DNA from: Thermogemmata fonticola
GTDB lineage: Bacteria > Planctomycetota > Planctomycetia > Gemmatales > Gemmataceae
Assembly (NCBI RefSeq): GCF_013694095.1
Contig: NZ_JACEFB010000002.1
Coordinates: 186,001-250,000 of the forward strand
Length of the DNA stretch: 64,000 nt
Direction: 5' to 3'
The notes below the pieces were generated by a model, which was not told the origin of the DNA, searched no databases, and saw only the letters and a list, made by a program, of their open reading frames with translations. The position numbers were made by a program, and so were the translations under genes. Shown one piece after another: positions 30,957 through 44,442 of this stretch (position 1 is the first letter of the stretch; every line of letters starts with the position of its first letter).

Positions 30957-32222
30957 CTATTGTGGAACATTTTCCACAACGGGCAAGTTGTAGCGGCGGC
31001 TTGGTTCGATGGAACCGCACGGTGAGGCGGCGGCCCATAACTGCGCAATCACGGCATCGGCCACAAACAACCCCCTCCGCGTCAGGCGCAGAGCCGCCCC
31101 CTCTTCTTCCAGCAACCCTTCTTCCTGCAACTGCCGGATGGCTCCGCCGGCTAGCTCGTCCACGGCTACCCCCGTTTGCTCGTGGAACGCTCGGCGATCG
31201 ATACCTCGGCGCCGCCGCAATTGTACCGCCAACGTCTCGCAGGCGCGCTCCCAAGGAGACAACTTCTCCCGATAAACCGTCACGGACTGACCCCGCATGA
31301 GGCGTTGGATGTACTGCCGGGTGTCCCGGACGTTCCCCTCGCGGCAGCCCCGAACATACCGGACCGCACCCGCGCCAAAGCCGTAATAGGCTTCGTTGGC
31401 CCAATAGGTCTCATTGTGCCGGCACCGATAGCCCGGACGGGCAAAGTTCGAGATTTCGTAATGCTCAAATCCCGCTGACGTCAAACGGTCGATGGCGAAG
31501 GCATACATCTCGCATTCGACCTCTTCGGGCACCGCTTGGACCTGACCGCGTTGCCAGCGTTTCCAAAGCGGTGTTCCCTTCTCGTATGTCAAACTATAGG
31601 TGGAGAGATGTTCCGGACGCAGGGCCAAGGCGCATTCCACATCAGCGGCCCAATCGGCCAAAGTTGTGCCGGGTATGGCAAAGATCAGGTCCAGGGAGAC
31701 GACGAATCCGGCGTCTCTGGCCCAAGCTACGACCTCTTCTGCTTGCGTGCTGGTGTGCCGCCGTTCCAAGGCTTGCAACGACTCGGAACGGAATGACTGA
31801 ACGCCGACACTCAGGCGCGTGACTCCATACGCCCGCAACAGGGCCAGCTTGTCGGGATCGAGACTTTCCGGCGTGGCTTCCACCGAAAACTCGATTGCCG
31901 CTGGGGAGGCATCCGCTGTTGCACCCGGTGCTTCAGGGTCAAAGGCCAAGGGCAGCCAATGCTTCAGAAGCGACAGCAACTCCTCCAGTAGAGGCAGGGG
32001 CAGATAAGTGGGAGTGCCTCCGCCGAGAAAGAGGGTTTGGACGGGTCGCGGGTACTCTAATTGCCGCAGTTCACAAGCTAGGGCTTGCAGGTAATCCCGC
32101 ATGAGATGATCTGCACCGGCGATCACGGCAAAATCACAATAGCCGCAGTGATGGGCACAAAAGGGAATGTGTACATAGGCTGCACGTGGCTCTTCCCAAG
32201 CGGCTTCCCTCATTCCGGACAT
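30957..32222 (-). CDS. hemW: HemW-like radical SAM protein
   Basis: A 421-residue radical SAM protein. YVHIPFCAHHCGYCDFAVIA near residues 15-34 contains the CxxxCxxC iron-sulfur motif, followed by FLGGGTPTYLP and SVEATPESLDPDKLALL. The C-terminal HemN_C region has RLMRGQSVTVYREKLSPWER. HemW binds heme and is thought to act as a heme chaperone rather than coproporphyrinogen oxidase. ATG 32222 with AAGGATC upstream at good spacing is preferred over GTG two codons earlier. It heads the minus-strand block with CBS-korA-korB. Confidence 0.85.
   Translation of the reverse strand: MSGMREAAWEEPRAAYVHIPFCAHHCGYCDFAVIAGADHLMRDYLQALACELRQLEYPRPVQTLFLGGGTPTYLPLPLLEELLSLLKHWLPLAFDPEAPGATADASPAAIEFSVEATPESLDPDKLALLRAYGVTRLSVGVQSFRSESLQALERRHTSTQAEEVVAWARDAGFVVSLDLIFAIPGTTLADWAADVECALALRPEHLSTYSLTYEKGTPLWKRWQRGQVQAVPEEVECEMYAFAIDRLTSAGFEHYEISNFARPGYRCRHNETYWANEAYYGFGAGAVRYVRGCREGNVRDTRQYIQRLMRGQSVTVYREKLSPWERACETLAVQLRRRRGIDRRAFHEQTGVAVDELAGGAIRQLQEEGLLEEEGAALRLTRRGLFVADAVIAQLWAAASPCGSIEPSRRYNLPVVENVPQ
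30960..30979 (-). other. Perfect palindromic hairpin in the end of hemW
   Basis: TTGTGGAA, a 4-base loop and TTCCACAA form an 8-bp perfect stem that overlaps the last codons of hemW. With the second hairpin just downstream it could stall or end transcription, but no T-tract follows. Confidence 0.4.
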
Positions 32223-32370
32223 TGCCACGGATCCTTTTCCAGTTCTGGCTAGAGAATCTCCGTTACCTCTTTCCGCTTGACGCCGAACCCATCTGTACCC
32301 GCTGACTGGAGCAGCTCCCTGTGGTTCCCCCAGCTTCAGGGGGTCATTCCATCTTACGGCATCCGGTCTG

Positions 32371-35658: not shown

Positions 35659-37491
35659 TCATGACCGGAGGGTCAAAGCGAGCAGTTGGGGCGGCTCGGC
35701 TTGGGGAAGTTCCCCTTTTTCCAGCACCGTATCGACTAAGTAGTAGAGCAATTCGCGCAGTTCGTCGGGTTGCAATTCATCCGCGATGGCTTCGGCCTTG
35801 GCGCGGAATTTATCGACCAGTTTATCTGCCTTGGTGAAGACATCGGCGGCAAAGTACAACTCTCGGACCCGCTGGAACCATTCCGCCGGTTGTTCTGGTG
35901 TTGTGGCGGGCTGTGTGGCGCTGCCACGGAGGAGGTGGAGCAGTTCGCTGCGCTCGGCCGCGGGAAGGGCTTCCAAAGCCAGAGCCAACAGAAGTGTGGG
36001 ACGGGCCGCGAAGGTGTCCTGCCCGGCAAGGAGTTTGTTATGATCGTCACCGACCCAATCCTGGATGTCATTGAGGATTTGGAAGGCCACGCCGAGGTGG
36101 CGGGCAAAGTCGGCCACGGATTTTTCTAGGCCATTCACTGGCCCGGCCAAACGGATGCCGCAGTAAAGAGCCGCTTCAAAGGCAGGGGCTGTCTTGAGGG
36201 CGTAAATTTTGAGGGCTTCAAGAGTCGATAAGGCTTGGGGAGCTTCCCGCCACAACAACTCGGCTCCCTGACCTTCGGAGAGTTTTGTGTGAGCTTCGGC
36301 CAGTTTGTCCAGAATGTCGGCGGCGGTGTCGCTGCCTAAAGCCTGACGATCGCGGGAGACCAAGCGGTAACCTAAGCCGATGAGATAATCGCCGACATTG
36401 ATGGCCGTTCCCAAGCCGTAAACCCGATGCAGCGTCTGCTGGCCATAGCGGTAGGCATCGTCATCTTCGATGTCGTCATGGACTAAGCTCGCTTTGTGGA
36501 AAGTTTCGATAGCCAAAGCGGTGCGTTTGACCGCATCGGAGAATTCCCAGCCTTCTGCTTGGCGGGTGGCAGGTGCGCCGCGCATGGCGTCGTAAGCGGC
36601 CAAAGTGATGAAGGGGCGGAAACGCTTGCCCCCGCGCATCAGGAAATCCAGGGCAATGGCCTCTTGGCGGATGAGAGGGTCGATGTGGTGAAGGGCTTCG
36701 CTCAGGGATAATTTTCCTCCCCGCGGAGGGGCCGCCAAACGATAGAGTTCCGCTTCCTCGAACAGCTTGTTGGCGGCCCGCATCAGGTGCATGTAGGTCT
36801 TCGTTTGTTGGGGAGGAGGAGGCGTGTGGACGCCCATCGTCTCGAAGACCCAGTCATTGTCCACGGAAGTGTTCTTGCAATTGCTGGAAAGCAAAGGAGT
36901 GGCCAAGCAAGGAATACCCGCCAGCAACACCTTGTCGAAGGCTTTCTCCAGCACGTTGAGGCATGCGACACCGACGATCGCGTCCACATGACCGGAGACG
37001 ATGATTTTCAGAACGATCGGTGTACCTTCGCTGATGAGCACCTTGTAGCCTAGCTGTTCCGCTTTGGTGCGAAAGTCGCCGACATGGCAGGCTCCGCATT
37101 TGCGGCAATCCAGCCCGAATTCATCGTAATCCGCCGGGCAACCCTCCGCATTTTTCAGACAGTGGGGCAGTAGCATCAAGCGGCGATGGAAGGGGACGGC
37201 TGCTACCTGGTCCCGCCAAAAGGCGTTGGTGATCATGACCATAGTGAAGCCCAAGTACCGCTCGCTCAGCCCCAACTGCCGCAACACTTCTTCGGCCATC
37301 GCCCGTGTGGATTCCTTGGTTAGCGGCTTGGACTTGTCCAAGCGGCGGCAGTACGCGTCGGCCGCAGCCCGGATGGCATCACGCAGGCTCCGTTCGGGCG
37401 GTACATCCTTGAAAGCAGCGGTGGATGGCCGGGCTGTGGAAACGGGGGAGCGTTCGTGGACGGTTGCCGTGGCGTCAATTGCAGTGGTCAC
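35659..37491 (-). CDS. DUF116-polyprenyl diphosphate synthase fusion
   Basis: A 610-residue protein starting at GTG with GGAGGG just upstream. The N-terminal part (about 55-245) matches DUF116: LLPHCLKNAEGCPADYDEFG and CRKCGACHVGDF show several Cys likely to bind metal, followed by VDAIVGVACLNVLEKAFDKV. The C-terminal part (about 270-560) is a trans-prenyltransferase: GGKRFRPFITLAAYDAMRG, the first Asp-rich motif SLVHDDIEDDDAYRYGQQ (about 338), and a second motif QILNDIQDWVGDD (about 472), where the first Asp is Asn as in many isoprenyl synthases. It should make geranylgeranyl or longer diphosphates. The DUF116 fusion is unusual and hints at a coupled redox or metal step. It heads the isoprenoid-like cluster discussed in the findings. 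Confidence 0.85.
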   Translation of the reverse strand: MTTAIDATATVHERSPVSTARPSTAAFKDVPPERSLRDAIRAAADAYCRRLDKSKPLTKESTRAMAEEVLRQLGLSERYLGFTMVMITNAFWRDQVAAVPFHRRLMLLPHCLKNAEGCPADYDEFGLDCRKCGACHVGDFRTKAEQLGYKVLISEGTPIVLKIIVSGHVDAIVGVACLNVLEKAFDKVLLAGIPCLATPLLSSNCKNTSVDNDWVFETMGVHTPPPPQQTKTYMHLMRAANKLFEEAELYRLAAPPRGGKLSLSEALHHIDPLIRQEAIALDFLMRGGKRFRPFITLAAYDAMRGAPATRQAEGWEFSDAVKRTALAIETFHKASLVHDDIEDDDAYRYGQQTLHRVYGLGTAINVGDYLIGLGYRLVSRDRQALGSDTAADILDKLAEAHTKLSEGQGAELLWREAPQALSTLEALKIYALKTAPAFEAALYCGIRLAGPVNGLEKSVADFARHLGVAFQILNDIQDWVGDDHNKLLAGQDTFAARPTLLLALALEALPAAERSELLHLLRGSATQPATTPEQPAEWFQRVRELYFAADVFTKADKLVDKFRAKAEAIADELQPDELRELLYYLVDTVLEKGELPQAEPPQLLALTLRS

Positions 37492-37842
37492 GGTCCCTCC
37501 AGGGGTGCGAGGTTGAATTCAAACCGCAGAGCCTCACATCAAGTACGACTCATATGGCGGTCGGAGGTTGGCGGGAACCTTTCAGTGCTGCGTAGGCGAC
37601 ACTTCAGGTCATGCTGACTCCAACCGGATAGACGGCTCCGTTATCTCTACGGAGACCGCAGACAGCTCTGCAATCCCTCCGTATTACTAATTGGAAGCTT
37701 CTGGGGTCGATGACAAGGCGACGCAGGTAAAATGCCGGAAAAAACAGGCCTGCTGTTCCTCCTGCCCTCCCGACCCACTGACTTTCTACGTCCATCCACG
37801 CTCTATACCACGTTTGAGCCTGTTCCTTACGAGGAGCCTGCC
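37492..37842. other. Intergenic region, no gene seen
   Basis: About 350 bases between the DUF116-prenyl synthase gene and the divergent ThuA-like gene. No gene or clear terminator is supported. Confidence 0.45.
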
Positions 37843-39009
37843 ATGCGATCTCTGCTTTGCCTTGCGAGTTGGTGTTGCCTCCGATATTGCCAGCGGATGC
37901 TTGCCAAGTTGAAGTTCTCCCCGCGGATGGCCAGTGGCATACCGGTCTTAGGATTGGCGGTGGGGGTTGCCGGCCTCGTGACTGCCTCTGTGGCGGGCCA
38001 AGCCGACAAGTCGTTCCTCGCGGAATCCTCAGCCAAAGCGATGCATACGGAATCATTTGTCCCCCCTGGCACATTGGCTATGATTCAACCAACTGCAACT
38101 CAGTTGCGCATCGACTTCGATCCTTACGATCAGTCCCAGGTTCCCTTGGAAGTCGAACCGGCGGCGGATTACAAGGGCAAACGCATTTTGTTGGTCGCGG
38201 GCCGTGCTAGTCATGGACCGGGGGAACATGAGTTCTTCGCCGGCTGTGTAATCCTGGCGAAGCTGCTGCGGCAGAACGCCAACGTGTTTCCCATTCTGTC
38301 GCGTGATGGCTGGCCTAAGAACGAAAAAATGCTGGAAACAGCGGACTGCATTGTCCTGTACATGGATGGCGGCGGGGGGCATCCTGCCATTCAACCCAAG
38401 CGGATGGAGTTGGTCCAGCGCCAAATCGACCGGGGTGTCGGCTGGGTCAACTTGCACTATGCGGTGGAATACCCTGTGCGGCAAGGGACGCGGGATATTG
38501 CCGGCTCGGTCAAACGCTGGCTGGGAGGATATTACGAGACAGGCTATTCCATCAATCCCCACTGGGATGCGGAAATACGGAGTTTGCCCAAGCACCCAAT
38601 CACACGAGGAGTGACGCCCTTCCGCTTGCGGGATGAGTGGTACTACGGCATTCGCTTTTTGGAGGACCTCCGCGGGGTGACGCCGATTCTCCAGGCGGTG
38701 CCGCCAGATAACACCCGGCGCACCGAGGCCACGAAGCTGCGGGCCGGCCAGATCGAAACTTTAGCTTGGGCCTATGAACGCCCCGATGGCGGGCGGAGTT
38801 TCGGCTTCACCGGCGGCCACTTCCATCGCAACTGGGGCAGCGAACATTTCCGTAGGATCGTGGTCAACGCTATCCTGTGGTGTGCTAAGGAAGAGATACC
38901 GCCGCAGGGGGCCAAGGTGGCGTTCGATCCGATCGATCTCAATCGCCATCTCGACCGCAAAGGGAAGGGGGAGTTTCGCCCCATCCTACCGCCGGCTCCC
39001 GACCGGTGA
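37843..39009 (+). CDS. Secreted ThuA-like protein
   Basis: A 388-residue protein. A hydrophobic N-terminal region (FSPRMASGIPVLGLAVGVAG) suggests export or anchoring. The rest is a ThuA/trehalose-utilisation-like domain with a class I glutamine amidotransferase-like fold: GKRILLVAGRASHGPGEHEF, CIVLYMDGGGGHPAIQPKRM and FGFTGGHFHRNWGSEHFRRI. Planctomycetes encode many such proteins, usually near sugar-breakdown genes; the enzymatic activity is poorly defined. ATG 37843 has GAGGAG upstream and precedes the hydrophobic segment by about 25 residues. It is on the opposite strand to its neighbours and may be unrelated to the lipid-like cluster. Confidence 0.8.
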   Translation: MRSLLCLASWCCLRYCQRMLAKLKFSPRMASGIPVLGLAVGVAGLVTASVAGQADKSFLAESSAKAMHTESFVPPGTLAMIQPTATQLRIDFDPYDQSQVPLEVEPAADYKGKRILLVAGRASHGPGEHEFFAGCVILAKLLRQNANVFPILSRDGWPKNEKMLETADCIVLYMDGGGGHPAIQPKRMELVQRQIDRGVGWVNLHYAVEYPVRQGTRDIAGSVKRWLGGYYETGYSINPHWDAEIRSLPKHPITRGVTPFRLRDEWYYGIRFLEDLRGVTPILQAVPPDNTRRTEATKLRAGQIETLAWAYERPDGGRSFGFTGGHFHRNWGSEHFRRIVVNAILWCAKEEIPPQGAKVAFDPIDLNRHLDRKGKGEFRPILPPAPDR

Positions 39010-39119: not shown

Positions 39120-40901
39120 TTATGGGGCGGATGGAGGCAGTCGTTTGACGGCTTTTCCTAGGGCGGCCAAGGTGAAAATGAGGGGGTAGAGTTTCTCGTA
39201 GTACCACAGGCGGGCGAAGTACAGGCCGATGGGCGACGCTTGGCGGAACCGTTCGCTCTCCACCGCTTCGATCAGCCAGGTCAGGCCGCGTTCGACAGCT
39301 TGCCGCTCTGGTGTATTCTGGGCGAGGTCCAGCAGAATCTCCACACACAAGGCGGTTTCCTCGACAGAGGATGGGCAACCGGCGGCTCCGCCCCAGCCCC
39401 CGTCGCTGTTTTGTGCCCCCAGCAAATACTCCACCCCCCGCCGGCATTCGGCAATGTTCTCCTTCCCCCAGTCGCGATAGGCGGCTAATACTCGGCAGGT
39501 GCCATAGACAGGATTGGTTTCATCCGGGGCGTGTTCATTGCCGAACCATAAAGGGAGCCAGCTTCCGTCCGCTTGCTGGCAACAGCGTAGGAAATTCCAG
39601 GCGCGATCGACTACCTGCTCAAGCTGAGAACGAACGGGTCCCCCTACGTTGTGCCACAGGCGTAGGGCACGTAGGGCATGAGCGGTCAGGTCCGGGCCGC
39701 TGCGGTCAAAGGGCAATTTTCCCCAGCCGCGGCAGAAGGTGGGGAAGCCGCCGTCAGAGTTCTGCAATTGGCAGAGCCATTTTCGAGCCAGGTCCAATTC
39801 GGTGGGTGGTGGGCAGGGGTGGCCCAGCAGATGCTCCAGCGCGAGAATCGCAGAGGGGGTATCGTCGCAATCGGGTACGCCGCCGGGTAGATCGGTCCAG
39901 GCCCATCCCCCCGGTGCAGCTCCGGTGTAGGGATGCCTGTGGCGGTGTTGCTGCTGGAGTAACCAGTCACGCAGATGTTCCGGGTTTTTCAGAGATGGCA
40001 GGTCTTCTGCGGCGGCGAAAGCCTGGATGGCCAAGGTGGTAACCCAGGTGGCCAGATTGGTGTCGATGGGCCAGCTTCCATCCGGACGTTGAGAATGGAC
40101 CAGAAATTGGACGCCCTGAGCGATGATGGCTTCCGCGGTGGTGTCGCGCTGCCGCAGGCGAGCTAATGCCATGATTACGAAGCTGGTCAAGGGTGTGGCT
40201 TCCAGATACCCCCCGCTAGCCGGCTGAATCTGCCGTAGAAGGCGGAGAGTGCGTCGGCGCGTGAAACGGCGGAGCAGCGCCGCTAGTGGGTTCCAGGTTC
40301 CCCGGTGAGCGTGAATACACTGGCCGATGGCGATCAGCGCAGGCAGAGCATAGCTGACAACGGGAAGGCGTGCGAAGCGATACCAGCTTTGCGGCAGCGC
40401 GGCCAATTCGAAGGGCAAGCGCGGGACCTCCTGCCACGGGACTAGACCGGCTATAGCGCAGCTCATCAAGATCGGCACGGAGAACGTTCGGTCCCTTCCA
40501 TAGCGGCGGCGGATGGCTTCGGCGCGGCGTTCAGCGGTCGCACCGGCCTGCTGGGATATGTACTCTTCCAGGCGGGTGACGCTGTCCGCCCAAGTTTTCT
40601 CGGCGCCAATTAGGCGGAAGGCAGCTCGCACCAGCATCGCTGTGGAGAGATTCGACCGGCTGCGGACGGTGTCTCCCCAGCCACCGTCGGCATTCTGGTG
40701 TTTCACCAGCCAGTGCAAACCAGCGGTGATGCGTTCGCTATGCTCGAAGGGGTTGACAAGCTGCAAGGCCATGACCGCTGTGGCGGTGGACAAGGCCGAA
40801 CTGGATAATTCCCCGAGCCAATGGCCTGCCGCTGTTCGCTCCGCTAGTAATGCCTCCCGGACGCGCTGATAGGCTGCTGTCAATCGTGCCGGTTGGATCA
40901 T
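39120..40901 (-). CDS. Class II terpene cyclase-like protein (squalene-hopene cyclase family)
   Basis: A 593-residue protein with many QW repeats (HQNADGGWG, SQRPDGSWP, LQNSDGGFP, CQQADGSW, AQNSDGGWG) and the class II catalytic motif in GGVPDCDDTPSAI (DxDDTx, near residue 343). A late NPVYGTCRVLAAY corresponds to the family's YGT segment. Squalene-hopene cyclases are normally about 630-720 residues, so this is short, and the N-terminal region differs. It should protonate and cyclise a polyprene, but the substrate need not be squalene. ATG 40901 has GGGGGAG upstream; an earlier GTG at 41003 has no ribosome site. Neighbours on this strand are the ferredoxin-like and lipoyl-like proteins. Confidence 0.8.
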   Translation of the reverse strand: MIQPARLTAAYQRVREALLAERTAAGHWLGELSSSALSTATAVMALQLVNPFEHSERITAGLHWLVKHQNADGGWGDTVRSRSNLSTAMLVRAAFRLIGAEKTWADSVTRLEEYISQQAGATAERRAEAIRRRYGRDRTFSVPILMSCAIAGLVPWQEVPRLPFELAALPQSWYRFARLPVVSYALPALIAIGQCIHAHRGTWNPLAALLRRFTRRRTLRLLRQIQPASGGYLEATPLTSFVIMALARLRQRDTTAEAIIAQGVQFLVHSQRPDGSWPIDTNLATWVTTLAIQAFAAAEDLPSLKNPEHLRDWLLQQQHRHRHPYTGAAPGGWAWTDLPGGVPDCDDTPSAILALEHLLGHPCPPPTELDLARKWLCQLQNSDGGFPTFCRGWGKLPFDRSGPDLTAHALRALRLWHNVGGPVRSQLEQVVDRAWNFLRCCQQADGSWLPLWFGNEHAPDETNPVYGTCRVLAAYRDWGKENIAECRRGVEYLLGAQNSDGGWGGAAGCPSSVEETALCVEILLDLAQNTPERQAVERGLTWLIEAVESERFRQASPIGLYFARLWYYEKLYPLIFTLAALGKAVKRLPPSAP

Positions 40902-41082
40902 GCTGCTGATTTGCTCCCCCGCCTCCGTTGTTTCGCTTTCCCTTACGGGCTGGTGTCGTGTTTTACGGAAACGCTTAGTGTCTAGGATCGTGCTTGTAAG
41001 CACCGGCTTCTTGCGCTCCCGGCTTCGCTTGCTCGCCGGCTGCTTGGGCTATCGACTGCTTCTGCTCACCGGCGGCTTCCGC

Positions 41083-42219
41083 TCACAGGCCGAGATTGTC
41101 GAGGTCGTCCACGAGCTTATCCAATTCATCCTTGGGTTGCTCGGTTTTGTGACTCTGGCGTTTGGGAATGCCCACGCTCATGCCCACGGCTTGCCGGCCT
41201 GCGTTAATCAGTTCCCGATCCCGTTCGGCGACAGCAAGGGATAAGGCATCCCCACTCTCGCCGCCAAACAGCTTGCTTAGGTCGATCTTGACGCTTCCGG
41301 TAGCGCCGATCTCCGCCCCAGCTATTGCCGGTGATTTGTACTCCGGGAACATGATCGCTTGCTGGGGGCACACCCGGCTGCAAGCTGGACATCCCTTCTT
41401 GCACTGGTCGGGGTTCTCGACGAGGATCCGTTCCAGAGCATCCACTCCGTACACGCCAAAAAGACAGAAGTCGAGGCATTCCAAGCAGTTCGTGCACCGG
41501 CTGTAATCGATCACCGGGTACCAGCGCCGGGGGGTGGGTTCGAGGAATGTCGCGGCTGTCATACTTCCCGCTTCTGGTGGCGGATGGACGGAATTTGCCG
41601 GCGGCTCCGAAAAGGGGTGCACCGTTCCGTTCGGTGTGGCTGTTCCGTTCCACTGCAAGGCCAGGCCCAAACTGACCCAGACGGGGGGTGCTGCCCCGAC
41701 CGCGTCCTTGGTGGCATCCTTCGCCTGCCTTTGCTGGCACTCTTCAGCAATCCGTTCGATTTCGGCGAGAACTTCCTCCGCCCGTTCCGCCTCCCGGAGA
41801 TCTACGGGATAGATCCAGCGGGAGGGTATCTCCCCTTTGGGGCCGATTCCCGCCTGCTCTGGGGCTTCTGTCTGGTCTTGAGCTTCCCTGGAAGGAGAGG
41901 GTTCCGCCTCCTCTGAGGCCTCTTCCTCTGCTTTGCCCAACTGTGTTTTGCCGAAATGTCCTTGAATGCCGTGGCGGTCCAGGATCCAGAAAGCGGCGCG
42001 GGGATACAGCCACGAAAGAACAACCAAGTCGCCTCGCACCGCTTGCAAAAACAGCAAGCCCGAATGGTCCGGCTCCAGATCGTAGAGGTTGGGCACGACG
42101 GCTACCTCGTATTCCGGGCGGCCCAACAGGGCGGCCACAATCGCCTCTTCCAGCGAACGTTTCGCCGGATGCTTCCCAGGCGACTGCGAGATCACAATGG
42201 TTAATCGGTTGCGGGCCAT
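41083..42219 (-). CDS. Long ferredoxin-like [4Fe-4S] protein
   Basis: A 378-residue protein. The first 160 residues look like a separate domain (MARNRLTIVISQSPGKHPAK onward), followed by an acidic, Gln/Glu-rich linker. Two iron-sulfur motifs lie near residues 240-290: CTNCLECLDFC and CKKGCPACSRVCPQQAIMFP. The spacing differs from plain bacterial ferredoxins. It may carry electrons between other Fe-S proteins of the cluster. The start has GAGAAG upstream. It is separated from the cyclase gene by 181 bases and from the GcvH-like gene by 131 bases. Confidence 0.8.
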   Translation of the reverse strand: MARNRLTIVISQSPGKHPAKRSLEEAIVAALLGRPEYEVAVVPNLYDLEPDHSGLLFLQAVRGDLVVLSWLYPRAAFWILDRHGIQGHFGKTQLGKAEEEASEEAEPSPSREAQDQTEAPEQAGIGPKGEIPSRWIYPVDLREAERAEEVLAEIERIAEECQQRQAKDATKDAVGAAPPVWVSLGLALQWNGTATPNGTVHPFSEPPANSVHPPPEAGSMTAATFLEPTPRRWYPVIDYSRCTNCLECLDFCLFGVYGVDALERILVENPDQCKKGCPACSRVCPQQAIMFPEYKSPAIAGAEIGATGSVKIDLSKLFGGESGDALSLAVAERDRELINAGRQAVGMSVGIPKRQSHKTEQPKDELDKLVDDLDNLGL

Positions 42220-42350: not shown

Positions 42351-42824
42351 TTATTCCTCCAATCCCAACTTGTTCATTTGAGCTTTGATGATCCGCTGGG
42401 TATTTTCCCATCCCGCTTCCAGATGCGCATGATATTGATCGACGGTGAGAGTCTCTGCTGGATCGGCCCGGAGTTGGAATAACCAGCCGGCGCCGTAGCA
42501 ATCGACGTTGATCAGGCCGGGGTCCTGCAATACTTCTGGGTTGATCTGGATGACCTGCCCTGCCAAAGGGGCATACAGTCCGGAGGTGGCTTTCTGCGTC
42601 TCAATGAACCCGATTTCTTGACGGGCCGCAACGTGCTGGCCAGCATCGATCCGCCACTCCAGAAAGTATACATCCCGCATCAGGCGTACCGCATAAGAGG
42701 TGAAGCCGAAGGTGTGGATCCCTTCCTCTCCCACGCGGCACCACATGTGGTTCTTGCAGTAGCGCAGCTCCGAGGGCAGGACTGCCAGGTACTTCCCCAT
42801 CGCAAATGTGCGCGGCTCGGTCAT
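42351..42824 (-). CDS. GcvH-like lipoyl carrier protein
   Basis: A 157-residue protein of the glycine-cleavage H family. The lipoylated Lys is in FIETQKATSGLYAPLAG (Lys78), in place of the usual ESVKAASD. YCKNHMWCR and GIHTFGFTSYAV match the H-protein core. Its length is longer than GcvH (about 127-130 residues), with extensions at both ends. No gcvT or gcvP lies nearby, so it is not part of a normal glycine cleavage operon. It sits between a radical SAM gene and a ferredoxin-like gene, which suggests that it carries a substrate or redox group for another pathway. An alternative start at Met9 is possible. Confidence 0.82.
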   Translation of the reverse strand: MTEPRTFAMGKYLAVLPSELRYCKNHMWCRVGEEGIHTFGFTSYAVRLMRDVYFLEWRIDAGQHVAARQEIGFIETQKATSGLYAPLAGQVIQINPEVLQDPGLINVDCYGAGWLFQLRADPAETLTVDQYHAHLEAGWENTQRIIKAQMNKLGLEE

Positions 42825-42908: not shown

Positions 42909-42954
42909 GGCTCAGATCACGTACATCGGCTGGCTCAGATCACGTATATCGGCT
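42909..42954. repeat. Tandem 23-bp duplication at the end of the radical SAM gene
   Basis: GGCTCAGATCACGTACATCGG with two more bases (42909-42931) is followed directly by a copy with one mismatch (42932-42954). The second copy covers the last codons and stop of the minus-strand radical SAM gene, and the first copy repeats them downstream of the stop. Confidence 0.9.
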
Positions 42955-44436
42955 GCTGATATACTGCGGGTCGAAAAAGCGGGGCAGATGCCGGTCGATT
43001 TGGATCAACCCCTTACGCGTACAGCGGATGCTCTCGGAATCCACTTGGAGGTAGCCTTGGTCGCAGAGTTGTTGAATCGTTGGACGAAACTCATCCCGAA
43101 TGTCCACGCCGTATTTGTCCCGGAAGTAAGCGACATCCAGATAGCCGGTCTTCAGCAAAAGAATCACCTCGCGGATCAGTCGGTCGCGTTCGGTGGTGAC
43201 TAAGGCACGTCCGAAGGGCAACTCTCCAGCCTGGAGCTTGCCAATGTACTGTTCCCAGGTATCGACATTTTGCACATGCACGCCGTTGATGTGGCCAAAG
43301 GAAGCAACCCCGGTGCCGAACATATCTGCTCCGTGCCAGAGCGCTTCCCGATAGACAAAGCGGGTGGTCGCAGGGTTGCGGACCGCTGTGGTCGCACTGG
43401 TGACGGTGTATCCCGCCCGTTCCAACTCGGCGAAGGCATACTCGACCCAGGCGCGTTTCGTGGGCCAGTCAGCAATCTCCAGCCGCTGTTGAGTCGTTTC
43501 ATCCACCAGGGTTAGTTGCCATCCGGTTTGGTTCTGGTTTCCGCTACCGTCGGCGCGGTTCGCCGGAGAAGTCGGGAGGCTCTCGGAACCGGCCTGCCGC
43601 AACTCGCGGGAGAAAATCGTGTTGTAGGGCAACTCCATCTGATAAATGGTGACGCAATCCGGTGCCAATTCCAAGGTTTTGGCAACACACCGCCGCCAGT
43701 TGTCCCAGTCCTCCCCGACCATTCCCGCGATCAGATCGATGTTGATCTGCGGGAAACCCAGTTCTCTGGCCCAAGCGTAGGCTCGATAGATCTCCTCTTC
43801 GCTGTGAGCGCGGCCGTTGAACTGGAGAATCTCCGGTTTGAAATTTTCCACCCCTAAGCTCAAACGGGTGATGCCGTGCTGGCAGAGGGTTTCCAGCTTG
43901 TGTTTCTGTAAAGTGCCTGGTTCGCACTCAAAGGTGATCTCACGTGCTGCATCCCATGGCATAATCTCCCGCAAGCGGTGGAGCAGCCGGTCCAATTGCC
44001 CTGCGCTAAGATAGGAGGGCGTTCCTCCCCCGAAATAGACATAATCCAAGGGCCGGTTCCCGACGCACGCCGTGCGGCTGAGCAATTCGACTTCCTGAAT
44101 CAACGCTTCCAGATAAATCTCGATGTCCCGTGCGTTTTTGTCCGTATAGACCCGAAAGTAGCAGAACTTGCAGCGTTTGCGGCAGAAGGGAATGTGCACA
44201 TACAAGCCCAAAGGCACATTGGGGCGTGGAGGCCGGGAGAGAGCCTCGTACACTGCCGGTACCCATTCCTTCTTCCAGAAGGAAAACGGCGGATAGTTGG
44301 CGATGAAGTAGTTGCCTAATCCTGTTTGTTCCTGTTCCGCCTCGGTGGGAATTTTGTCCCGCAGACTGGATCCGGTTGGCGCCGCATTGGATTCCACACT
44401 TTTTTCCCGGTGCGAAGACTCGGCTGTCGCGCTCAT
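42940..44436 (-). CDS. HemN-like radical SAM protein
   Basis: A 498-residue radical SAM enzyme of the coproporphyrinogen III oxidase-like group. The CxxxCxxC motif is in YVHIPFCRKRCKFCYFRVYT (near residue 80-99), with YVYFGGGTPSYLS and CEPGTLQKHKLETLCQHGI following. The N-terminal 60 residues and the C-terminal part differ from HemN and from the HemW in this window. The role in porphyrin synthesis is doubtful; members of this group include enzymes for other methylations or rearrangements. ATG 44436 has GAGGGG at good spacing; GTG two codons earlier is possible. It is first in the series radical SAM, lipoyl carrier, ferredoxin-like, cyclase. Confidence 0.82.
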   Translation of the reverse strand: MSATAESSHREKSVESNAAPTGSSLRDKIPTEAEQEQTGLGNYFIANYPPFSFWKKEWVPAVYEALSRPPRPNVPLGLYVHIPFCRKRCKFCYFRVYTDKNARDIEIYLEALIQEVELLSRTACVGNRPLDYVYFGGGTPSYLSAGQLDRLLHRLREIMPWDAAREITFECEPGTLQKHKLETLCQHGITRLSLGVENFKPEILQFNGRAHSEEEIYRAYAWARELGFPQINIDLIAGMVGEDWDNWRRCVAKTLELAPDCVTIYQMELPYNTIFSRELRQAGSESLPTSPANRADGSGNQNQTGWQLTLVDETTQQRLEIADWPTKRAWVEYAFAELERAGYTVTSATTAVRNPATTRFVYREALWHGADMFGTGVASFGHINGVHVQNVDTWEQYIGKLQAGELPFGRALVTTERDRLIREVILLLKTGYLDVAYFRDKYGVDIRDEFRPTIQQLCDQGYLQVDSESIRCTRKGLIQIDRHLPRFFDPQYISSRYT

Positions 44437-44442
44437 GTCCAC

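Follow-up and report, generated by a model that had tools for sequence, protein, structure and literature searches.

A GcvH paralogue family of Planctomycetota, encoded with Fe-S, radical SAM and terpene cyclase genes, points to a possible overlooked role of lipoic acid

Introduction

What does a GcvH-like lipoyl carrier do where the genes of glycine cleavage do not surround it? The question is raised by a gene of Thermogemmata fonticola, here called HL, which lies in a stretch of 64,000 nucleotides (the window, that is, the whole of the DNA that was analysed). Few lipoate-dependent systems have been described. Excerpts of PMC10332631 name the 2-oxoacid dehydrogenases and glycine cleavage, to which sHdr sulfur oxidation was added in 2018. 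A sequence-only reading of the window had described the HL product as a GcvH-like carrier outside a glycine-cleavage context and had suggested that its load might be an acyl or redox group used by another enzyme, which is plausible.

Results

Fold and extensions of HL

The HL protein matches the Pfam family GCV_H with 90.3 bits (cut-off 22.2), and the open reading frame is therefore not a chance one. With this score and 125 HL loci, an artefact is ruled out. The Biotin_lipoyl score of HL is 22.4 bits. HL stays below the cut-offs of the NCBI curated GcvH models TIGR00527 (87.6 bits; cut-off 115.85) and NF002270 (98.1 bits; cut-off 117), and also below those of the models NF045810 (GcvH_rel_desulf; 56.3 bits; cut-off 150) and TIGR03077 (22.5 bits; cut-off 144.05).

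An AlphaFold2 model of HL, computed with 56 HL sequences as input, has a mean pLDDT of 93.1. It has 22 Foldseek matches at E <= 0.001, which are H proteins, the last and weakest being the GcvH-like protein 5a35 (21% identity). The model is superimposable on the E. coli H protein (3a7l) with a TM-score of 0.87 (normalised to the target) and an rmsd of 1.5.

The lipoyl-lysine region that had been singled out from the sequence, FIETQKATSGLYAP, stands at residues 73–86 of HL, and the extensions that had been noticed on both sides are real (Table 1). In the N-terminal extension, F7, M9 and G10 are conserved. The C-terminal extension is a helix (residues 128–152), the last part of which falls on gap columns in 22 of 23 GcvH rows. 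Residues W139, Q143, K147 and Q149 of this helix are kept in 98–102 of 105 HL sequences and are weaker in the deep HL sequences. Two long HL open reading frames (734 aa in L181 and 682 aa in L182) were considered as fusions and rejected, as Pfam finds GCV_H alone, at the C-terminal end; they are probably open high-GC frames.

Table 1 Features of the HL locus (window positions)
Feature	Position	Strand	Basis or detail
GcvH-like lipoyl carrier paralogue (HL)	42351..42824	-	157 aa; GCV_H match, trees, GcvH fold
Lipoyl-lysine motif FIETQKATSGLYAP	42567..42608	-	HL residues 73–86, including K78 and E75
HL C-terminal helix (residues 128–152; 25 residues)	42369..42443	-	W139, Q143, K147 and Q149 conserved
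2[4Fe-4S] protein ('Fd') with alpha/beta N-terminal domain	41083..42219	-	eight invariant Cys; within 8 kb of HL in 104/125 loci
HemN-like radical SAM protein (CRKRCKFC), of the partly separate module B	42940..44442	-	domain matches
Class II terpene cyclase, squalene-hopene cyclase-like	39120..41003	-	DCDD and four QW-type repeats
DUF116 fused to polyprenyl diphosphate synthase (DUF116-PPS)	35659..37491	-	Pfam

Separation of HL from glycine-cleavage H proteins

The T. fonticola genome (4.8 Mb, 97% complete) has two GCV_H genes. The genome's own gcvH is on contig C9, between gcvT and gcvP1, and is followed by gcvP2 and an open reading frame of the BPL/LplA/LipB family that is, judged by its position, lipoate-ligase-like. 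The LipA gene is on C1. Ligase-family matches number three in the genome, none of them on the HL contig; the third, on C4, scores 22.6 bits against a cut-off of 21. When the genome's own GcvT and GcvP1 are used as blastp queries, no match is found among the window's open reading frames of at least 90 aa, in agreement with the earlier statement that no gcvT or gcvP is near.

In a maximum-likelihood tree, HL and GcvH fall on opposite sides of one branch with a support of 99/93. This tree has 67 rows, comprising 40 of 105 HL sequences (20 picked, 20 random) and 27 GcvH rows, among which the genome's own GcvH is entered twice and four PDB chains are included. The second tree (86 rows), for which 20 further HL sequences were added and the doubled row was dropped, splits 60 HL from 26 GcvH sequences at 100/96 and sets the 24 deep HL sequences apart at 100/99. 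Both trees are unrooted and therefore do not give the order in which HL and GcvH arose. A gcvT or gcvP1 relative lies within 8 kb of none of 105 HL genes and of 18 of 23 GcvH rows (the genome's own GcvH counted twice and some sequence stretches short); the loci were picked by GcvH-type matches, so this count describes context and is no random sample.

With the genome's own gcvH elsewhere and HL apart in both trees, HL is a GcvH paralogue family set apart from the glycine-cleavage H proteins, which bears out the sequence-only reading of a GcvH-like carrier outside glycine cleavage. HL does not group with the genome's own H protein, and the gcv genes have an H gene of their own.

When a profile of HL is run over 294 sampled genomes of the phylum, 52 of them score 119–236 bits; a gap in scores follows, and GcvH-level matches begin at 103.8 bits and go down from there. 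In the window's class, HL is present in 19 of 21 genomes, the exceptions being G087 and G167. Among the best 80 of 307 HL relatives in GTDB genomes, 78 bear planctomycete names and two are named just 'bacterium'.

Residues of HL and GcvH

HL shares with GcvH (E. coli 3a7l/3ab9, T. thermophilus 1onl, M. tuberculosis 3hgb) the fold, the lipoyl lysine, the glutamate at −3, His26 and Trp28. In our set of 125 HL sequences (105, four of them deep, and 20 added deep ones), both the lipoyl lysine K78 and the glutamate E75 are invariant.

HL differs from GcvH at several other positions. In particular, position 27, which corresponds to Glu-14 of E. coli, is Glu in all 22 GcvH sequences and in both references and in none of the 125 HL sequences, where it is mostly Met, Leu or Phe and also Tyr, Thr, His, Cys, Ser, Ala or Val. 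In simulations of the E. coli H protein, as given in excerpts of PMC7733448, Glu-14 bonds the aminomethyl nitrogen. Arg47 is invariant in the 125 HL sequences, and 0/22 GcvH sequences have Arg there. The residue before the lipoyl lysine is Val in 22/22 GcvH sequences and never Val in HL. The motif HEW, present in 22/22 GcvH sequences, is replaced by H-x-W, with x other than E, in 125/125 HL sequences. Asp-68 of E. coli likewise belongs to the aminomethyl path; its counterpart is Gly in the window's HL and is Asp or Glu in 20/20 of the added deep HL sequences and 31/105 of the others, indicating that this part of the path is not lost throughout. From the alignment, the cleft of the H protein appears to be retained in HL and may have been reshaped for a cargo without positive charge.

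Genes around HL

In the window, the HemN-like radical SAM gene is followed by HL, the Fe-S protein gene and the cyclase gene; an oppositely oriented ThuA-like gene comes next, and then DUF116-PPS. Domain matches confirm the radical SAM and Fe-S genes that had been seen to flank HL. The ThuA-like gene (37732–39009, +) breaks the run from cyclase to DUF116-PPS and is outside the conserved neighbour families. Elsewhere in the window (30957–32228, −), an open reading frame of 423 aa codes for a HemN-type radical SAM protein 27% identical to the HL-adjacent one and perhaps of the housekeeping HemW type.

In the deep loci, the genes usually form a run of HL, a CobW-type GTPase, the 2[4Fe-4S] protein, a radical SAM protein, DUF116-PPS, a prenyltransferase-like protein (PT20) and a class II cyclase; in a few of them, the radical SAM or cyclase gene is elsewhere or past the contig end. 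Within 8 kb of HL, the 24 deep loci have the Fe-S protein (23), CobW (23), DUF116-PPS (20), radical SAM (18), PT20 (16) and cyclase (11). Among the 101 other loci this run is disrupted, and the neighbours are the Fe-S protein (81), the HemN-like radical SAM (64), a propeller protein (58), Fe-ADH (47), ALDH (39), an AMP-ligase-like protein (37), cyclase (25), DUF116-PPS (24), the second radical SAM (18) and CobW (5). Seven of the 125 loci are without any module gene. Some loci are near-duplicates from one species, and the neighbour counts are thus not independent. Many genomes of the phylum share the fusion of DUF116, which has several Cys, with a polyprenyl diphosphate synthase, and its gene often adjoins that of a class II terpene cyclase.

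Further partners lie outside the window in T. fonticola: CobW is on C4, and the second radical SAM gene is on C2, about 0.27 Mb away. On C6 (L201:4965-8998, G000), the AMP-ligase-like, ALDH and Fe-ADH genes are clustered with a propeller gene. An open reading frame near this cluster (L201 14995-15789) was considered as a dedicated lipoate ligase and rejected, as it reads as a biotin ligase that, from its motif, we take to be of the BirA type.

Eight Cys, arranged as two ferredoxin-like motifs, are invariant among 64 sequences of the Fe-S protein. In the structural model of this protein, the N-terminal domain of alternating strands and helices is confident and the ferredoxin part is poorly modelled. 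Foldseek finds nothing for the N-terminal domain at E <= 0.001, and a profile search of PDB sequences with the Fe-S protein gives zero matches at the same threshold. A chelatase-like fold, considered for this domain, found no support: VIA-align gives middling rows across unrelated alpha/beta folds (best Z 8.8), and no fold match is convincing. The DUF116 part has three chance-level rows in a phmmer search of the PDB (E 0.15 to 1). The label 'AMP-ligase-like' rests on a Pfam score of 20.9 bits, under the cut-off of 29.9, and on weak NCBIfam matches. In ten loci, DUF116-PPS adjoins a gene with a weak chorismate-lyase-like match (E 0.021, below the cut-off), seen in one of two copies and not in a further copy that was scanned; this match is too weak to base a pathway on.

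Co-occurrence of HL with two gene modules

Presence of these genes was compared in 65 chosen genomes: 21 from the window's class, 8 HL-bearing ones from two further families and 36 others, most of which are of high completeness. Presence cut-offs were placed at gaps in the E-values, and Fisher tests were run with no correction for relatedness. HL is present in 30 genomes, the Fe-S protein in 32 (30 shared with HL), DUF116-PPS in 32 (29 shared), the second radical SAM in 31 (30 shared) and CobW in 30 (29 shared). The HemN-like radical SAM and AMP-ligase-like genes occur in an identical set of 33 genomes, 29 of them shared with HL. These counts are not independent, as the genomes were chosen and are related.

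The pattern resolves the genes into two sets. Module A is composed of the Fe-S protein, CobW, radical SAM and DUF116-PPS, with cyclase and PT20 alongside. Module B is composed of the HemN-like radical SAM and AMP-ligase-like genes, with ALDH, Fe-ADH and propeller alongside, and is often adjacent to module A. HL is present in 29 of the 29 genomes that have the Fe-S protein, DUF116-PPS and both module B markers.

HL is absent from four genomes that have module B without the Fe-S gene. In two of these (G242 and G198), module B is collinear without HL (L157:2824-9829 and L158:2638-10041); the other two (G077 and G087) have both module B marker genes, and G087 retains a diverged DUF116-PPS. The AMP-ligase-like protein of these four genomes therefore does not need HL. 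In L157 and L158, module B is followed by a relative (34–35% identity) of the weakly chorismate-lyase-like protein.

G167 and G284 lack HL as well; in both, the Fe-S protein and DUF116-PPS occur while module B does not, indicating that the Fe-S protein has an HL-independent use. G284 is without CobW and the second radical SAM as well. Searched with the HL profile in six frames, the module loci of the two genomes contain no HL, and genome-wide the profile gives GcvH-level scores only; G284 has a GcvH-type gene beside gcvP. The Fe-S protein, DUF116-PPS and cyclase persist at L166 and L167 (G167) and L164 (G284), where neither HL nor module B is detected. G277 contains HL together with the Fe-S protein and the second radical SAM, and DUF116-PPS, CobW and module B are undetected in it; its assembly is a draft in about 1010 contigs and is 86% complete.

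Discussion

A proposed lipoyl arm between the two modules

Our preferred reading, which we hold tentatively and at less than an even chance, is that HL is a dedicated lipoyl carrier that passes an uncharged intermediate between modules A and B of a planctomycete pathway. It is the simplest account of the presence of HL with both modules, of its kept lipoyl site and of its apparently remade cleft. Lys78 would be lipoylated by the general ligase of the cell and LipA. The reduced arm would then load an uncharged intermediate, a thioester being the likeliest linkage, and present it to the enzymes of the other module. The 2[4Fe-4S] protein may reset the thiol/disulfide state of the arm. Judged by family names, module B could activate a carboxylate and form an aldehyde or alcohol, and module A looks able to make a polyprenyl chain and cyclise it, with radical chemistry as well. 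It is possible, though rather doubtful, that lipoic acid is used in this way in lipid or terpenoid biosynthesis, with HL as the covalent hand-over arm for a (mero)terpenoid typical of many Planctomycetota.

Lipoyl domains of the 2-oxoacid dehydrogenase E2 subunits are acyl-dihydrolipoyl carriers, and HL would work alike if its cargo were a thioester. The E2 domains are a different family, in line with the preference of HL for GCV_H over Biotin_lipoyl.

Several observations count against an arm between the modules. The pattern of HL with both modules hangs on six exception genomes, two of them untidy (G284 and G087), and in the incomplete draft G277 HL is present with module B undetected. Module B occurs without HL in four genomes, 7/125 loci are without module genes, and the Asp-68 position keeps an acidic residue in the added deep HL sequences. 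The constancy of the Fe-S protein as a neighbour would suit a pure redox role equally.

The principal alternative is such a redox role, with the Fe-S protein as partner, although it is unlikely. The lipoyl dithiol/disulfide would move electrons between the Fe-S protein and a radical SAM protein or the DUF116 domain, with no covalent substrate. In accordance, the Fe-S protein, with its eight invariant Cys, is the most constant neighbour of HL (81/101 and 23/24 loci), two radical SAM families accompany HL, and no lipoamide dehydrogenase is among the named conserved neighbours. However, G167 and G284 retain the Fe-S protein and DUF116-PPS with HL undetected, and an electron relay leaves the retention of an H fold with its cleft without explanation.

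It is improbable that HL is a non-lipoylated scaffold, in which the fold would have a purely structural function and the lysine would stay unmodified. Large changes in HL, such as the invariant Arg47 and the C-terminal helix, would fit a scaffold, but the strict conservation of Lys78 and Glu75 in 125/125 sequences is hard to explain without lipoylation.

The sequence-only reading had drawn a parallel with the lipoyl-binding proteins of sulfur systems. Like HL, LbpA of the sHdr system is a single lipoyl-domain, GcvH-like protein encoded outside glycine cleavage, by Hdr-like and radical SAM genes (excerpts of PMC6067878 and PMC10332631). By analogy, the arm of HL would bring sulfur for a C-S bond-forming step, a role we regard as quite improbable. 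Two conserved cysteines mark most LbpA proteins, some archaeal ones being exempt (excerpts of PMC6067878), whereas HL has no conserved Cys column, the best column reaching 12/125. A Pfam scan of nine genes between 34988 and 47658 of the window, eight of them also scanned with NCBIfam, finds no shdr gene near HL, and the hits of the Fe-S protein on HdrA models are weak and of the ferredoxin type. A dedicated sLpl(AB) ligase and LipS1/S2 nearby are features of the LbpA systems; as for ligases, no ligase-family match lies on the HL contig in this genome. The parallel with sulfur systems thus finds no support: the Cys pair is absent, and the conserved neighbours that can be named indicate isoprenoid chemistry.

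The GcvH of B. subtilis passes lipoyl groups on to other lipoyl proteins. That HL is a spare GcvH of this kind, a relay of lipoyl groups or a second H protein for the gcv cluster, is very improbable: HL has the GcvH fold and lipoyl motif, and LipA and an LplA-like open reading frame are coded in the genome, but HL is apart from GcvH in both trees, is never near gcvT/P (0/105), lacks Glu-14 in 125/125 sequences and shares the genome with a gcv-linked GcvH.

Meaning of the HL family

A GcvH paralogue with its own gene context is a known kind of thing, as LbpA and GcvH-L exemplify. GcvH-L of Streptococcus (5a35) and the families NF045810 and TIGR03077 are GcvH-like proteins that their authors separated from GcvH, as HL is separated here. 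A literature search, with most subscription journals outside its scope, found no description of the HL family, its residues or its gene set, and titles and abstract beginnings on DUF116 and on planctomycete cyclase and CobW genes describe no such gene set. The HL family thus offers a well-defined candidate for an additional, so far overlooked use of lipoate, and the gene set names its likely partners; lipoyl-dependent terpenoid assembly, if true, would be a new role for lipoate. As HL is widespread in Planctomycetota, whose cell biology is noted for being unusual, this role is open to test. In addition, planctomycete 'GcvH' annotations mix two protein families, which are separable in the analysed set by HEW versus H-x-W.
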